Origin: Deltaproteobacteria bacterium
Lineage (GTDB): Bacteria > JAUYMQ01
NCBI GenBank assembly: GCA_030698575.1
Contig: JAUYMQ010000002.1
Span: 1-6,167 of the forward strand
Length of the DNA stretch: 6,167 bases
Reading direction: 5' to 3'
Shown here: in pieces, positions 738-6,167 of the stretch
Numbering within the stretch: position 1 is the stretch's first letter
Layout of the letters: every line of letters starts with the position of its first letter
Made by a program: the position numbers and the translations under genes
The notes under the pieces: model-generated
Databases searched by the model: none
The model's input: the letters and a program-made list of their open reading frames with translations, nothing else
Told to the model about the DNA's origin: nothing

Positions 738-1895
738 ATGGATTTCAGTTTCTCGCAGGAAACTTTGATGATGCAGGAGACGCTCCGGAAGTTCATCACG
801 GAGGAGATGCTCCCGCTTCAGGAGAAGCACAAACTCGATCGCGAGAAGCCGCCGCCGGCGGATCTCTGCAAGCAGATGCGGAAACGCTCCGCCGAGCTGG
901 GTTTCTACGGCATCGACATGCCGGAGGATGTCGGCGGTATGGACATTCCGGCCGCCGATCGCTGTCTGCTCTTCGAGGAATCGGGGAAGCACGACAACGT
1001 CTTCGCCAACGAGGTCTTCGGCGGCGCCGGCGGGCCCACGCCCGTCCTGCTCGCCTGCAACGACAAGCAGAAGGAGAAGTACCTCCTGCCGCTCATGAAG
1101 GGCGACATCACCACCTGCTTCGGGCTGAGCGAGCCGGGCGCAGGCTCCGATGCCACGAACATCCAGACGATGGCGGTCAAGAAGGGCGACAAGTGGATCC
1201 TCAACGGCCGCAAGCACTACATCACGAACGGCCCGTCCGCCGACTTCGCGATGGTCTTCGCCTCGAATGACCGAGCCAAGCGCGCGAAGGGGGGCATCAC
1301 CTGCTTCCTCGTCGACCGCGACACACCCGGCGCCGACTTCGATCACCCGCAGCACACGATGGACGGCGATGGCTGGGTGGGCGAACTGGTCTTCGAGGAC
1401 TGCGAAGTGCCGGCTGAAAACCTGCTCGGGCAGGTAGGGGCGGGTTTCTCGCTGGCGATGAAGTGGATCAACGACGGGCGGCTCAACATCTGCGCAGGAT
1501 CGGTCGGGATCGCCAAGCGGATGCTGAAGCTGAGCCTCGATTATGCCCGGCAGCGCGAGGCTTTCGGCACGGCGATCGGCAATTTCCAGCTCATCCAGGC
1601 CATGCTGGCCGACATGGCGACCGACATCTTCGCCGCCGAGAACATGATGTACCGCGCGGCCTGGATGAAGGACCAGGGGCAGGACATCCGCAAGGAGGCT
1701 GCCATGGTGAAGCTCTTTGGCGCCGAGATGGTGAACCGCGTGGTCGATCAGGCCATGCAGATTCATGGCGGCATGGGCTTCATGCGCGAAACGCCGATCG
1801 AGCACGTGATGCGGCAGGTGCGCGTCTATCGGATCTTCGAGGGGACGAGCGAAATTCAGCGCCTCACGATTGCGAAGAACCTTCTGAAGGAATAG
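738..1895 (+). CDS. Acyl-CoA dehydrogenase (FAD-dependent)
   Basis: This 385-residue protein has the usual length for the family. It catalyses alpha,beta-dehydrogenation of an acyl-CoA thioester and passes electrons to electron-transfer flavoprotein, in fatty-acid or related acyl-CoA breakdown in the cytoplasm. The N-terminal helical domain (about 1-120) is followed by the beta domain with the first family signature, CFGLSEPGAGSDA (127-139), and WILNGRKHYITNG (153-165), which contact FAD and substrate. The C-terminal helical domain carries RQREAFGTAIGNFQLIQ (271-287; Arg and Phe at the FAD/dimer contact) and the second signature from QIHGGMGF (341-348). Glu368 in RIFEGTSEIQ is at the position of the catalytic base of medium-chain acyl-CoA dehydrogenase. 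All key residues are present, so it should be active. Chain-length or branched substrate specificity cannot be read from the sequence. It has its own promoter and RBS, no ETF or thiolase partner in view, and a tail-to-tail overlap with the antiporter gene. Confidence 0.95.
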   Translation: MDFSFSQETLMMQETLRKFITEEMLPLQEKHKLDREKPPPADLCKQMRKRSAELGFYGIDMPEDVGGMDIPAADRCLLFEESGKHDNVFANEVFGGAGGPTPVLLACNDKQKEKYLLPLMKGDITTCFGLSEPGAGSDATNIQTMAVKKGDKWILNGRKHYITNGPSADFAMVFASNDRAKRAKGGITCFLVDRDTPGADFDHPQHTMDGDGWVGELVFEDCEVPAENLLGQVGAGFSLAMKWINDGRLNICAGSVGIAKRMLKLSLDYARQREAFGTAIGNFQLIQAMLADMATDIFAAENMMYRAAWMKDQGQDIRKEAAMVKLFGAEMVNRVVDQAMQIHGGMGFMRETPIEHVMRQVRVYRIFEGTSEIQRLTIAKNLLKE

Positions 1896-2379
1896 CCACC
1901 GGCTCCCAGCCCGTCTCGGCGAGCGATTTCAGGGCCTGCTCGGAGGTCGCGGCGTGCAGCACGAAAGCGCCGATGTCGCCCTGCTGGGGCTTCGTGGCTG
2001 AATGGACGAGCAGGGTTTTCTTGTCGCGGTAGAGGGTGAGCAGCAGCCAGTCTTCGGTCTTCCGTTCGGCAAGCGCCGGGTTCTCACCTTCTTTCGCCGG
2101 CTCGGCCTCCTCCTTCGCCGGTTCACCCTGGAATCGGAGATACACGATCGGCGCTTCGTTGTGGCGAAAGCGCACGTTCCACCGTCCGAGGTCCCTCGGC
2201 CCGCCGAAGAGCACCAGCCCGCGCTCTCGCTCGATCTTCTCAGTGGTGACGCCCGGATCAATAGAATCGGCCCCGACATAGGTCGCCGGCACGCCGAAGA
2301 GCGACCGGGCTTCCTGGGCGAACAGCGCGTTCACCGCCGTGTTGCTCGTGAGTCCGACCGCCACCTCAGCCTGGTCGAG
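1864..2379 (-). pseudogene. C-terminal part of the frameshifted RCK-antiporter: rest of the TrkA-N domain plus an unknown tail
   Basis: This is the 3' continuation of the antiporter gene in another frame. The frame is open back to an ATG at 2451, but the part that fits the protein starts at the Leu codon 2377-2379, straight after the GC run. LDQAEVAVGLTSNTAVN continues the RCK (TrkA-N) Rossmann fold left unfinished by the upstream frame, including the T-x-N turn expected after the fourth strand, followed by FGVPATYVGA. After the RCK domain come about 115 residues I do not recognise. They include a charged linker with two EPAKE units (DNA 2089-2124) and a compact end with WLLLTLYRDKKTLLVH. The absence of random codon use or internal stops suggests it was translated until recently or still is, so a sequencing or assembly error is possible. 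The stop codon lies inside the 3' end of the convergent acyl-CoA dehydrogenase gene. Confidence 0.75.
2089..2124 (-). repeat. Two degenerate EPAKE-coding repeats in the antiporter tail
   Basis: Two 15-nt units coding EPAKE, offset by 21 nt, differ only at third positions (GAA/GAG, AAG/AAA, GAG/GAA). They encode an acidic/basic Pro-Ala-Lys-Glu linker between the RCK region and the last ~70 residues of the antiporter. This looks like a flexible low-complexity linker made by local duplication. Confidence 0.5.
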
Positions 2380-3763
2380 GCGCGCGCGCCAGCACCTTCT
2401 CGTCGAAGGCGTTTCCAAAGACCACGCCGTATCCCAGCCGCTCTGCCGCATTGCAATTCGCGGCGTTCGTATCGAGGAAGATCACGCGGGTTCCGGCCGA
2501 GCGCAGCTCGTTCCCGATCGCGAGCCCCAGGCCGTCGGCGCCGAGAATCACGGCGGCGTCACGGGGCGGGGCCAGCAGGCGGAGCATTTTTGCAACAAGC
2601 GGCGCGGCGCCGCCCTGCAACAGAACCGTGACCGCGATCGTCAGGAAGACGAGCGCCCGGAGCGCCGGCCCGCCCGCAATGCCCTCGACCTCCATGACGC
2701 TCGAGGTAAGGGACGCCACGGCGGCGGCGACGATTCCGCGCGGGGCGAGCCATGAGATGAATACCTTGTCCCGGAACGACATGTCCGTGCCGGCCGTCAT
2801 GGAGAAGACCTGCACGGGCCGCACGATGAACATGAGCGACGCCACCGTCGCAATCCCGCCCCAGCCAAGCGCCTGCACATCGGCCAGCCGGACGCTCGCG
2901 GCGAGCAGCACGAAGAGGAGTCCGATCAGCATGACGGTGATCTGCTCCTCGAAGGTCGCCATCCCCCGGCCCACGCGCGTGTGAAGGTTGCCGACGACGA
3001 TGCCGGCGATGGTCGTCGCGAGGATGCCGCTCTCGGGCAGGATGCTGCGGCAGACGGCGAAAAGCAGCACCACGCCGCCCATCGTCACGATGTTCTCGTA
3101 ACCCTCGGGGACGATTCGCCGCGACCGGAGTACCCAGGCCAGGAGGAAACCGAATGACGCCCCGGCAACGAGGCCGAACCCGATGCGCTGGGCCAGCCAG
3201 AGCGGGACGTTCGTGAAAGCCGAGGCCGAGGGGGCCACGGCTATTTCGAGGGCGAGAACGGCGATGAAGGCGCCGATCGGATCGATCAGCACCCCTTCGG
3301 CCTCGAGCACGGTGGACACGCGTGGGAGAAGCCGGACGTGCCGCAGGATGGGCGTCACGACCGTGGGGCCGGTGACGATGACGATGCTGCCGAACAGCAG
3401 CGCCTGGGTCCAGTTCCAGTCCAGCATGAAGAAGCGCGCGGCGAGCGCCCCGCCGAGGCCGGTGATGATCGCGCCGAGGGTCACCAACCGCCGGATGGCG
3501 GTTCCCTCACGCCGGAGGCGGCTGATCTCGAGATTGAGGCCGCCCTCGAAGAGAATGATCGCGACGGAGAGCCGCACGAGGCCGATGAGCCCCTCACCCA
3601 GGAGCCGCGGATCGACCCATTTCAGGCCGTCGGGACCGAGGGCGACGCCGGCGGCGAGGAGCAGCACGATGCCGGGCACGCGCAAGTGGCGCCCGAGCGC
3701 CTGGATGATCACGCCCACGCCCAGCGCTATCGCGAAGACGAGGCTGGCGTCCGCCACCTGCAT
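2366..3763 (-). CDS. CPA1-type cation/proton antiporter, membrane part and first half of RCK domain (frameshifted)
   Basis: Inner-membrane monovalent cation (Na+ or K+)/H+ antiporter. Residues 1-395 are a hydrophobic multi-helix domain. LFEGGLNL (71-78), TGPTVVTPIL (131-140), EGVLIDPIGA (156-165; Asp161 is the likely ion-binding residue) and WLAPRGIVAAAV (338-349) are typical of CPA1/NhaP-like exchangers. From about 403, AVILGADGLGLAIGNEL with VIFLDTN begins a TrkA-N/RCK Rossmann domain, which usually binds a nucleotide and gates transport. The frame stops after 465 residues, mid-domain, with a non-homologous tail PRPG. The domain resumes in another frame, and adding one GC to the run at 2380-2389 would give 633 residues. 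The start is supported by AGGGGGGA (3767-3774) ending 3 nt before the ATG. It lies 26 nt after the ATP-grasp gene on the same strand, probably in one operon. Na+ versus K+ choice is unknown. Confidence 0.85.
   Translation of the reverse strand: MQVADASLVFAIALGVGVIIQALGRHLRVPGIVLLLAAGVALGPDGLKWVDPRLLGEGLIGLVRLSVAIILFEGGLNLEISRLRREGTAIRRLVTLGAIITGLGGALAARFFMLDWNWTQALLFGSIVIVTGPTVVTPILRHVRLLPRVSTVLEAEGVLIDPIGAFIAVLALEIAVAPSASAFTNVPLWLAQRIGFGLVAGASFGFLLAWVLRSRRIVPEGYENIVTMGGVVLLFAVCRSILPESGILATTIAGIVVGNLHTRVGRGMATFEEQITVMLIGLLFVLLAASVRLADVQALGWGGIATVASLMFIVRPVQVFSMTAGTDMSFRDKVFISWLAPRGIVAAAVASLTSSVMEVEGIAGGPALRALVFLTIAVTVLLQGGAAPLVAKMLRLLAPPRDAAVILGADGLGLAIGNELRSAGTRVIFLDTNAANCNAAERLGYGVVFGNAFDEKVLARAPRPG
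2380..2389. repeat. (GC)5 dinucleotide run at the frameshift point in the antiporter gene
   Basis: Five GC units lie exactly where the two frames of the RCK domain must join. Between the Leu codon before the run and the Leu codon after it there are 10 nt. Twelve nt (six GC units) would read Ala-Arg-Ala-Arg and give the four-residue spacing usual in TrkA-N domains (L-x-x-A-G/R-L). Such runs are prone to slippage in replication and to indel errors in sequencing. Confidence 0.7.
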
Positions 3764-3789
3764 CGATCCCCCCTGAACCGGCGCCGGGG

Positions 3790-4833
3790 CTAAAGGGTCG
3801 CCATCTCGACGTTGTCGAAGTTACGGTGATAGTACTTCATGTACTCGACCTTGCGTTCGAGCGAGGTGATGACCGCCTGGGCGAAGTTCACCTTCTCGAA
3901 CTTCTGCGCGCTCCCGAGCCCTCCGGGGCTGAAGACGTTGATCTCCATCAGCTTGTTGCCGACGATGTCCAGGCCCACCAGGAACATCCCGTCCTGGACG
4001 ATCTTCGGTCTGACGATCTCGGCGACTTCGAGATGCGTGTCGGTGATCTCAGCCTCGCGCAGCTTGCCTCCCGCGTGGATGTTGCTTCGCATGTCGTCGC
4101 CGGAGCGAACGCGCCTGAAGGCGGCGTACTTCCCCTTGTAGCGCAGCGGGTGGCCGTTCATCATGAACAGCCGGGTGTCGCCCTCCGCCGCGGCGGTCAG
4201 GTATTCCTGGGCGATCACGTAACCGTCGCGGCTCACCGCATCGACCATCTGGTTCAGGTTCGCCAGTTCTCCCTTCCGCACCAGAAACACCCCCTGGCCG
4301 CCGGAGCCCTGGAGAGGCTTCAGAACGGCGTCGCCGTGCTGCTTGACGAATGCGCGGATCTCCTCGCGATCCCGCGTGATGATCGTGGTCGGGCGCACCT
4401 CGTCGGGGAAAAGCTGGAAATACATCTTGTTCGTGGCTTTGGCGAGGCCGTTCGGATCGTTGAGCACGATCACGCCGTGCCGCATCGCCACGCGGCCGAA
4501 GTTGATCCCGCTTGCCTGGGCCCAGGAGCGGAAACCCATGTCCGTGGATGGGTCGCTCCGGAGCATGAGGACGTCGAGATCGTCCACCGTGATTCGCTCG
4601 GAGATCGCCTTCTTTCCCTGGATGTCGGCGAGGTAGCTCTGGGAGGTCGTGTACTTCTTCTTCGGCGCGCTCCGGGCGCGCGCGCGGATCTTCTCATCCG
4701 CGTCGTAGGCGAAGTCCCCCGCGCCCATGATCCACACCTTGTGGCCGCGATTGACGGCCGACATGCCAAGTCGGATGGTGGTGTAGCCTTGCTCTTCGGT
4801 CGCGATGTCGTTGACGACAAATCCAAGATTCAT
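3790..4833 (-). CDS. Glutathione-synthetase-like ATP-grasp ligase
   Basis: This 347-residue cytoplasmic protein belongs to the GshB-like branch of ATP-grasp enzymes, which join a carboxylate to an amine through an acyl-phosphate made with ATP. The N-terminal pre-ATP-grasp domain (MNLGFVVNDI, residues 1-10, to about 125) is followed by LNDPNGLAKATNKMY (124-138), the Gly-rich lid LKPLQGSGGQGVF (171-183), AAEGDTRLFMMNG (215-227), RSNIHAGG (249-256) and LVGLDIVGNKLMEINV (285-300), whose Glu and Asn are the Mg2+ ligands. In typical GshB the last motif continues TSPT; here it is FSPGGLGSAQ, so the acceptor may not be glutamylcysteine plus glycine. No gshA is seen nearby. It starts 6 nt after the upstream metallopeptidase stop, with GGAGG across that junction, and the antiporter follows by 26 nt. 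The fold is confident; the true product is not known. Confidence 0.85.
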   Translation of the reverse strand: MNLGFVVNDIATEEQGYTTIRLGMSAVNRGHKVWIMGAGDFAYDADEKIRARARSAPKKKYTTSQSYLADIQGKKAISERITVDDLDVLMLRSDPSTDMGFRSWAQASGINFGRVAMRHGVIVLNDPNGLAKATNKMYFQLFPDEVRPTTIITRDREEIRAFVKQHGDAVLKPLQGSGGQGVFLVRKGELANLNQMVDAVSRDGYVIAQEYLTAAAEGDTRLFMMNGHPLRYKGKYAAFRRVRSGDDMRSNIHAGGKLREAEITDTHLEVAEIVRPKIVQDGMFLVGLDIVGNKLMEINVFSPGGLGSAQKFEKVNFAQAVITSLERKVEYMKYYHRNFDNVEMATL

Positions 4834-4839
4834 TCTTGC

Positions 4840-6167
4840 CTACCTCCGTTTGATGAGATCCAGAACCGAATCCGCCTGGCGCAGCTTCGCCATCTTCTCC
4901 GGGAAGCCGGGGTCTTCCAGGTACCGTGGCTTCAACGGCATGGGCAAGAGCACCTTTCGCCACTGCAGCTCCTCGATGATCGAGACGTGCCCGGATCCGA
5001 TCTTTCCAACGTAAAGCGGTTCCAGCTCTCCTCCGCCCTTCAGGTAGTCGAGCAGCTTGACGAGCCCCCGGAGATAGACGATGTCCTTGGTGAACCCGCC
5101 TCCCCTGAAGAGCCGCATCGTTATCATGAAAGCCATGCGCTGCTCAAAGTCGTAGGAGCGGTCCAGCTCGCGAAAGACGTCGATGAAGCTTGCACCGGAC
5201 ACCATGCGATCAGCCGCGGTCACGCGCGCAGCCAGCAGCCGGAGCCTTGGCCGGCTCAGGCCGCCCGCCAGGTATTCGGCCACCACGGCAAGTGATTCCT
5301 GCAGCTCCTCGTACTGCGGCAACCCGACGAAGAGCTGCCTGAATGGCTGCGCCCGGCCGTTGAAGTAGGTCACGACGTGGGTGCCGACTTCGTGCTGGAG
5401 CAGCGCCGCGATCCGGGACATCGGGATCTGCGACTGGCTTCCGATGAGCAGGTTCCCGCGTGAGACGAGCAGGCCCGTGACGTCGTCGCGGACCTCGGCC
5501 TTCGACGACAGCTCGGGATAGCGCGCGCGGTAGTACTTGAACTCCTCCTCCGCCCGCGCGGCGAACCCCTTGGCGTCGACGTGGCCCTTGCCCGAATCGT
5601 CGCGGCTGCGCGAGGGAACGTTGTCGAGAATCTTCCTGGCCAGCCTGAGCAGCGGGGAGCCGGGTCTTCCATAGAGCTGCAGGCTGCCGTAGAGAAAGCG
5701 CTTGGTCCCCAGATCACTGAGCATGCTCAGCCGCCGGTCGAGATCCTCCTGCTGGTCACGGAACAATGCGGCGAGGGACGGATCCTCTATGCGCTCGATC
5801 GGGATCGCGAAGAGCCGGCGCTTGAGAAGGCTTGGATCGACCGGTCGCGGGCGGTAGGCGAACCGCGGCGTCCTCTCGAATCGCTTCGACCGGAAATGCC
5901 GCCACTCGGGTTCGGGATTGGATGGCGTCACTTGCAGCAGGAAGTCGAAGGCGTGGCTCACCTCGGCCAGCTCGCGATCGACCTTCCAGACTGCCTTCAC
6001 GACCTTTCGCCGTCCGAGCGCGTGATAGTGGGGTGCGGAGTGCGTGGTCTCGGTGCGCGAGAACTCGAAGAACGATCGCCGCACCGCGTTGGAGAGCCCG
6101 CGGTGCAACGCCCTCCGTATCATCGGGAATACCTTGCCGGTCGCCTGGCTCTGGTAGATGGGGAGGA
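4840..6167 (-). CDS. DUF1704/QEGLA-motif zincin-like metallopeptidase (start beyond right edge or at 6123)
   Basis: The frame is open to the window edge. An ATG at 6123 would give 427 residues (numbering used here), but the upstream codons read LPIYQSQATGKVFP without a stop, so the protein may be longer; some homologues, as I recall, carry an N-formylglutamate amidohydrolase-like domain there. The core matches the DUF1704 family, often named flavohemoglobin expression-modulating QEGLA motif protein: VDRELAEVSHAFDFLLQVTPSN (48-69, an early family motif), LLIGSQSQIP (225-234), HEVGTH (244-249) and EELQESLAV (272-280). HExxxH plus the downstream Glu fits a zinc site; the eukaryotic relatives (MATCAP) are tubulin tyrosine carboxypeptidases. 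QESLA replaces the usual QEGLA. No signal peptide or membrane segment is visible. It is the first seen gene of the operon with the ATP-grasp ligase, so a job in trimming or recycling an amide-linked glutamyl or peptide product is reasonable inference; no bacterial substrate is known to me. Confidence 0.8.
   Translation of the reverse strand, partial: LPIYQSQATGKVFPMIRRALHRGLSNAVRRSFFEFSRTETTHSAPHYHALGRRKVVKAVWKVDRELAEVSHAFDFLLQVTPSNPEPEWRHFRSKRFERTPRFAYRPRPVDPSLLKRRLFAIPIERIEDPSLAALFRDQQEDLDRRLSMLSDLGTKRFLYGSLQLYGRPGSPLLRLARKILDNVPSRSRDDSGKGHVDAKGFAARAEEEFKYYRARYPELSSKAEVRDDVTGLLVSRGNLLIGSQSQIPMSRIAALLQHEVGTHVVTYFNGRAQPFRQLFVGLPQYEELQESLAVVAEYLAGGLSRPRLRLLAARVTAADRMVSGASFIDVFRELDRSYDFEQRMAFMITMRLFRGGGFTKDIVYLRGLVKLLDYLKGGGELEPLYVGKIGSGHVSIIEELQWRKVLLPMPLKPRYLEDPGFPEKMAKLRQADSVLDLIKRR
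4843..4847 (-). promoter_or_regulatory. Ribosome binding site of the ATP-grasp gene, inside the end of the upstream gene
   Basis: GGAGG on the - strand lies 9 nt before the ATG at 4833 and directly before the TAG (4840-4842) that ends the metallopeptidase gene. The RBS is therefore covered by ribosomes finishing the upstream gene, the usual layout for translational coupling and roughly matched output of the two proteins. Confidence 0.65.

Follow-up and report, generated by a model that had tools for sequence, protein, structure and literature searches.

A MATCAP-type peptidase and a GshB-like ligase in a deltaproteobacterial contig as a probable truncated copy of a conserved three-enzyme module

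RimK and tubulin tyrosine ligase add residues to the C-termini of proteins, and the NAGGN osmolyte system, built on a GNAT/ATP-grasp dipeptide synthetase, combines an ATP-grasp ligase and a peptidase with an osmotic-stress theme. On the cleaving side, the animal MATCAP/TMCP enzymes strip C-terminal residues and polyglutamyl chains (PMC10499314). Here, we describe a MATCAP-type metallopeptidase and a GshB-like ATP-grasp ligase that are encoded side by side in a Deltaproteobacteria bacterium, on contig JAUYMQ010000002.1. The 6,167-bp window is this one entire contig, and the genome amounts to 4.13 Mb in 653 contigs. We give a probability of about one half to the reading that the window carries a conserved module in truncated form, and that this module acts in osmotic or ionic stress by making and cleaving a glutamyl-type amide bond. 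Within this analysis, the reading rests on gene order, conservation, fusions, the conserved catalytic residues, the predicted folds and an enrichment of certain neighbours. The features of the two genes are as follows.

4840..6167, minus strand: MATCAP/DUF1704 (PF08014) metallopeptidase, C-terminal catalytic part (Pfam 284.7 bits, TIGR02421 327.7 bits)
5377..5394, minus strand: HEVGTH metal motif (HExxxH), with H258, E259, T262 and H263 invariant in 10 homologues
5296..5301, minus strand: Q-E of the QEGLA-type motif (QESLA here), presumed third metal ligand, with Q289 and E290 invariant
3790..4833, minus strand: ATP-grasp ligase of the PRK12458 subfamily, GshB-like (NF009110 485.7 bits, GSH-S_ATP 176.5 bits)

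Genome contigs were scanned with an alignment of the peptidase, which gave 452 relatives; the 80 loci compared below (numbered with the prefix L) are the closest matches and come from many phyla. A scan with a single peptidase sequence had returned nothing. In most of the 80 loci, the gene order is N-formylglutamate amidohydrolase (FGase, PF05013), MATCAP and then the ligase, which is present in one to three copies; exceptions with no ligase in view include L115, L125, L132 and L138. The same trio is carried by rhizobial plasmids, including S. meliloti pSymB, where the annotated FGase and QEGLA/MATCAP genes overlap by 4 nt. Rosetta fusions join the FGase to the ligase in L050 and the FGase to MATCAP in Photobacterium sp. 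GJ3, in which a PRK12458 ligase adjoins the fused gene. Since the order is conserved across phyla and fusions occur, the three enzymes form one system. The preliminary description of this DNA had taken the ligase and peptidase to work together, and the cross-phylum conservation and fusions bear this out; the third conserved enzyme, the FGase, lay beyond its view. The annotations of the three genes (‘glutathione synthase’, ‘N-formylglutamate amidohydrolase’ and ‘flavohemoglobin expression-modulating QEGLA protein’) mask this single system, and we found no paper describing it in the open-access literature on DUF1704, QEGLA, FGase plus mechanosensitive, and gshB2.

The window matches this module in that the ligase lies directly downstream of the peptidase, with 6 nt between the MATCAP/QEGLA stop and the ligase ATG and a GGAGG before the ATG. 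The peptidase gene runs off the contig end; about 200 residues of its N-terminus are missing, as is any gene upstream of it, since open frames in its relatives encode about 640–655 residues. Because the contig stops here, the window probably shows only two of the three module genes. Neither the window nor any other contig of the assembly gave an FGase (PF05013) match, and a search of the same genome for the absent N-terminal domain of the peptidase, run with no positive control, found nothing. In the phylum of a near match, genome G289, the module is present in one of five genomes. The module FGase of the relatives resembles N-formylglutamate amidohydrolase/HutG in its profile (PF05013 72.7 bits, cut-off 28.9) and its conserved histidines; however, the S. 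meliloti FGase scores far under the HutG equivalog cut-off (22 versus 279 bits). In Sinorhizobium medicae ml29 (L216:7441-11282), the FGase is split around two group II intron maturase genes. Two MATCAP genes with no ligase in view, from an Obscuribacterales genome and a proteobacterial metagenome-assembled genome, are each followed by an oppositely oriented gene for a caspase-like protein (Peptidase_C14; L132:9829-11289 and L138:9330-10880).

The window peptidase passes the Pfam cut-off of 27 bits for PF08014 and falls short of the NCBIfam cut-off for TIGR02421 QEGLA (338.65 bits), with QES replacing QEG. It keeps the metal-site residues of MATCAP, namely HExxxH and the downstream Glu, and is a putative metallocarboxypeptidase; HExGTH is invariant across 53 homologues, and the Q-E pair is to be compared with the EEG motif of TMCP1 (PMC10499314). 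For the fold, we used a structure model of the full-length relative L062 (predicted local distance difference test score 91.8). Its C-terminal domain superposes on human MATCAP (7z5g) with a Z score of 24.9 over 291 residues. Its N-terminal domain (38-238) superposes on the N-formylglutamate amidohydrolase 2q7s with a Z score of 13.6 and a deviation of 3.4 Å over 178 residues. A profile comparison of this N-terminal domain with the module FGase gave an E value of 4e-4 at only 35% probability, and sets the EIWS of the former opposite the DLHSYN of the latter. The N-terminal domain of full-length MATCAP relatives is thus a probable degenerate FGase domain. In summary, the bacterial peptidase shares the catalytic fold (judged on L062) and the HExxxH + E metal site with the tubulin metallocarboxypeptidases MATCAP/TMCP1 (KIAA0895L) and TMCP2, whereas it has a ligase partner, tubulin is absent, and its relatives add the N-terminal FGase-fold domain, in which the key histidines are apparently lost. 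The module gives this family, to which the animal tubulin carboxypeptidases belong, a bacterial context.

The ligase passes the cut-off of its subfamily, PRK12458 (NF009110, 408 bits), and misses that of canonical GshB (TIGR01380), with 209.9 versus 299.05 bits. Its model is nearest to E. coli GshB (1gsa; template modelling score 0.87 by target), and RimK structures come next. In the alignment to 1gsa, the positions of the ATP- and Mg-binding residues K125, K160, D273, E281, N283, R86 and R210 of GshB are kept. The likeness to E. coli GshB and RimK lies in the fold, together with the GshB residue positions, whereas the PRK12458 subfamily, the score under the canonical cut-off and a conserved C-terminal tail set the ligase apart. 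This tail (typically RRNFDNVEMATL; positions 3790-3825 in the window; L062-L141) is conserved to the last residue across phyla and terminates in ...NFDNVEMATL. The same genome has a second GshB-like gene behind an open reading frame taken, by reading and without a profile search, as glutamate–cysteine ligase. Glutathione is an unlikely product of the window ligase, because of this separate gshA–gshB-like pair and the missed GshB cut-off, and the enzyme is also unlikely to be the only glutathione synthetase of the genome. NAGGN synthetase (TIGR03103) was considered and rejected: the ligase, the peptidase and the osmotic theme are alike, but the ligase scores 20.8 bits against a cut-off of 569. 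In L073, L095, L101, L106 and L110, three tandem ligase paralogues follow one peptidase, an arrangement that suggests successive ligation steps.

To analyze the surroundings of the module, we counted genes matching ion-flux profiles (MscS, CorA, MgtE, CNNM, K+ channel and CPA antiporter) in the 80 loci and in 40 control stretches drawn from module-bearing and related genomes. Such genes occur in 37 of the 80 module loci and in none of the 40 controls (Fisher P 7e-9), and in 27 of 55 loci after close relatives were thinned. Two common families are not enriched at the module (17/80 versus 11/40, and 17/80 versus 7/40). Most seeds of the ion-flux profiles came from module loci; therefore, the neighbour count was repeated with all of Pfam. 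MS_channel was then the top family in two batches of genes nearest the module, accompanied by CBS, AA_permease/SLC12, CNNM, CorA and MgtE, and none of these six ranked among the top families of the control batch. Across 19 genomes that carry the module, 29 of 69 MscS genes are found no farther than 15.5 kb from a QEGLA peptidase, where 0.48 are expected. KCC-like genes are also among the neighbours. In all, the module recurs next to potassium, magnesium and pressure-sensing channels in about ten phyla. Many of the ion-flux genes directly adjoin the module and share its strand; for example, the order is ligases, MscK-like, CorA, CNNM in L095 and MATCAP, CNNM, K+ channel, MscS in L133. In L089 (5749-7158), a gene for an MgtE-type Mg2+ transporter lies between the peptidase and the ligase and nearly abuts both.

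A response to salt has been recorded in a relative. In the marine bacterium Photobacterium damselae, RNA sequencing at 1% versus 3% NaCl showed the GshB gene RS17020 up 38.4-fold and the QEGLA gene RS17025 up 27.5-fold, which places this adjacent pair among the most induced genes at low salt (PMC10308900). Together with the ion-channel link across phyla, this points to a testable function and to a candidate osmotic-stress peptide or tag. Several points weigh against an osmotic or ionic role. About half of the loci lack the profiled ion-flux families, Pontibacter loci show none of the six, and on the annotated rhizobial plasmids the genes in view around the module include no ion channel of these families. 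Most of the MscS distance signal is owed to Poribacteria. The survey took in just the 80 best matches, and few lineages are represented among the controls. Finally, the assignment of the P. damselae pair to the module rests on adjacent locus tags, annotation and the GJ3 relative. The lack of ion-channel genes at the rhizobial loci, the GshB-like ligase and the name of TIGR02421, which refers to flavohemoglobin modulation, would also suit an unrelated housekeeping or redox role, such as glutathione-like thiol turnover, with the ion genes co-located in generic stress islands. We regard this as quite unlikely, given the near-abutting ion genes on the same strand in many phyla, one of them inside the module, and the strong NaCl response.

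For the preferred reading, a module of osmotic or ionic stress, the following mechanism can be proposed. The ligase would form, and the peptidases would cleave, a glutamyl-type amide bond on a small glutamate-containing peptide or a protein tail, and this bond cycle would help the cell to respond when osmotic or ionic conditions shift. In many lineages, the module stands within or next to an operon whose ion-flux genes vary (MscS/MscK, K+ channel, KCC-like, Kef-like, CorA, MgtE, CNNM), and in the window genome this slot would be taken by an RCK-bearing cation/proton antiporter of the CPA1 type. The cycle may adjust the level of glutamate, the usual counter-ion of K+. We infer the glutamyl nature of the bond because animal MATCAP/TMCP strips polyglutamyl chains and the name of FGase refers to cleavage of a glutamate amide; one substrate shared by the enzymes and an aim in ion/osmolyte balance are likewise inferred. 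A special case of this mechanism is that the ligase extends the C-terminus of a protein, possibly a channel, and MATCAP trims it. MATCAP enzymes do work on protein tails (PMC10499314) and RimK structures are the next-best folds for the ligase, but no shared motif was seen in the C-terminal tails of the neighbouring channels, and the ligase is nearest in fold and sequence to GshB, a free-peptide ligase. Modification of protein tails is unlikely in our judgement. Equally speculative would be a reversible glutamyl ligation and cleavage cycle of MATCAP, ATP-grasp ligase and FGase that tunes K+/Mg2+ transporters and mechanosensitive channels during osmotic shifts, and that would be the prokaryotic equivalent of the cycles of ligase and carboxypeptidase acting on the tails of tubulin.

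Downstream of the ligase, the window continues with an antiporter gene in two pieces.

2366..3763, minus strand: CPA1-type antiporter membrane domain and start of TrkA-N/RCK, first frame (PF00999 155.2 bits, PF02254 30.3 bits)
1864..2451, minus strand: remaining cytoplasmic part of the antiporter in another frame, with 26–30% identity to the C-terminal part of the intact L143-L146
2381..2390, minus strand: GC run where the two frames meet (indel), read from the sequence; relatives are unbroken

A gap of 26 nt with a Shine–Dalgarno-like stretch separates the ligase stop from the antiporter ATG. The preliminary description had reported a minus-strand trio of peptidase, ligase and antiporter with gaps of 6 and 26 nt; the families, strand and spacing were verified, whereas it had missed that the contig end truncates the peptidase and that the antiporter is frameshifted. 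The antiporter consists of two overlapping open reading frames in different frames, compared with single frames of about 590–690 residues in its relatives, and the indel in the GC run is either real in this copy or an assembly error. The cut-offs for Na_H_Exchanger and TrkA_N are both passed, the latter domain being only partly in frame. No Kef model reached E 1e-3 with the window antiporter, and PRK05326 and a_cpa1, the only NCBIfam models found for it, stayed under their cut-offs; identity with KefB/KefC was thus rejected in favour of a CPA1/NhaP-like profile.

The preliminary description had further proposed, as one of two options beside a shared stress response, that the antiporter is gated by a small peptide or tag which the ligase makes and the peptidase removes or trims, with the gating of Kef by glutathione through RCK-type domains as the precedent. 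The Na_H_Exchanger plus TrkA-N layout and a nearby GshB-like ligase are indeed shared with glutathione-gated K+ efflux by Kef. In the planctomycete locus L120, a Kef-like CPA2 antiporter (217 bits against the KefC model, cut-off 752) and an MscK-like channel adjoin the module on the other strand, and K+-channel-like genes are near it in six loci, with a TrkA-N domain in the one scanned. However, the window antiporter is NhaP2-like and outside the Kef models, its RCK part is frameshifted, no link between its family and the module is seen at other loci, and no RCK domain is present in the MscS, CorA, MgtE and CNNM neighbours scanned. Any likeness in gating is hypothetical; we saw no evidence of ligand gating and consider it highly improbable.

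The idea that the antiporter belongs with the peptidase–ligase pair in general failed in the neighbourhood survey that had been suggested as its test. Antiporters of this family are beside the module in none of the 80 loci and in none of 12 loci from the phylum of genome G039, and the module is within 1.5 kb of none of 29 antiporter relatives. The antiporter is rejected as a conserved partner and, by that test, is a lineage-specific neighbour of the module. Two antiporter-like proteins near other loci are of other types, the Kef-like CPA2 protein of L120 and a Na+/H+ exchanger-like protein of 523 residues near L141 (read as L053). What stands is the association of ion-flux genes as a class with the module across phyla, and the arrangement in the window fits this pattern, with an NhaP2-like antiporter in the slot. 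The frameshift and the absent linkage would also be explained if the antiporter were a passenger, there by chance or broken, that follows the pair in this genome alone, irrespective of the role of the module. Its position on the same strand, the 26-nt gap with a Shine–Dalgarno-like stretch and the ion-flux genes at the equivalent place in other phyla speak against a passenger, which we hold to be a real possibility at somewhat less than even odds.

The remaining genes lie on the plus strand. An acyl-CoA dehydrogenase gene (738-1895) converges on the antiporter and overlaps its end by 32 nt, and beyond it lies the end of a Nudix/MutY-like gene (2-463); neither looks connected to the trio. No terminator-like site was found in the whole window. 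The intergenic stretch 505-609 holds a palindromic element of two nested perfect inverted repeats, with arms of 19 nt (505-523/591-609) and 17 nt (529-545/563-579), which resembles a dispersed repeat.

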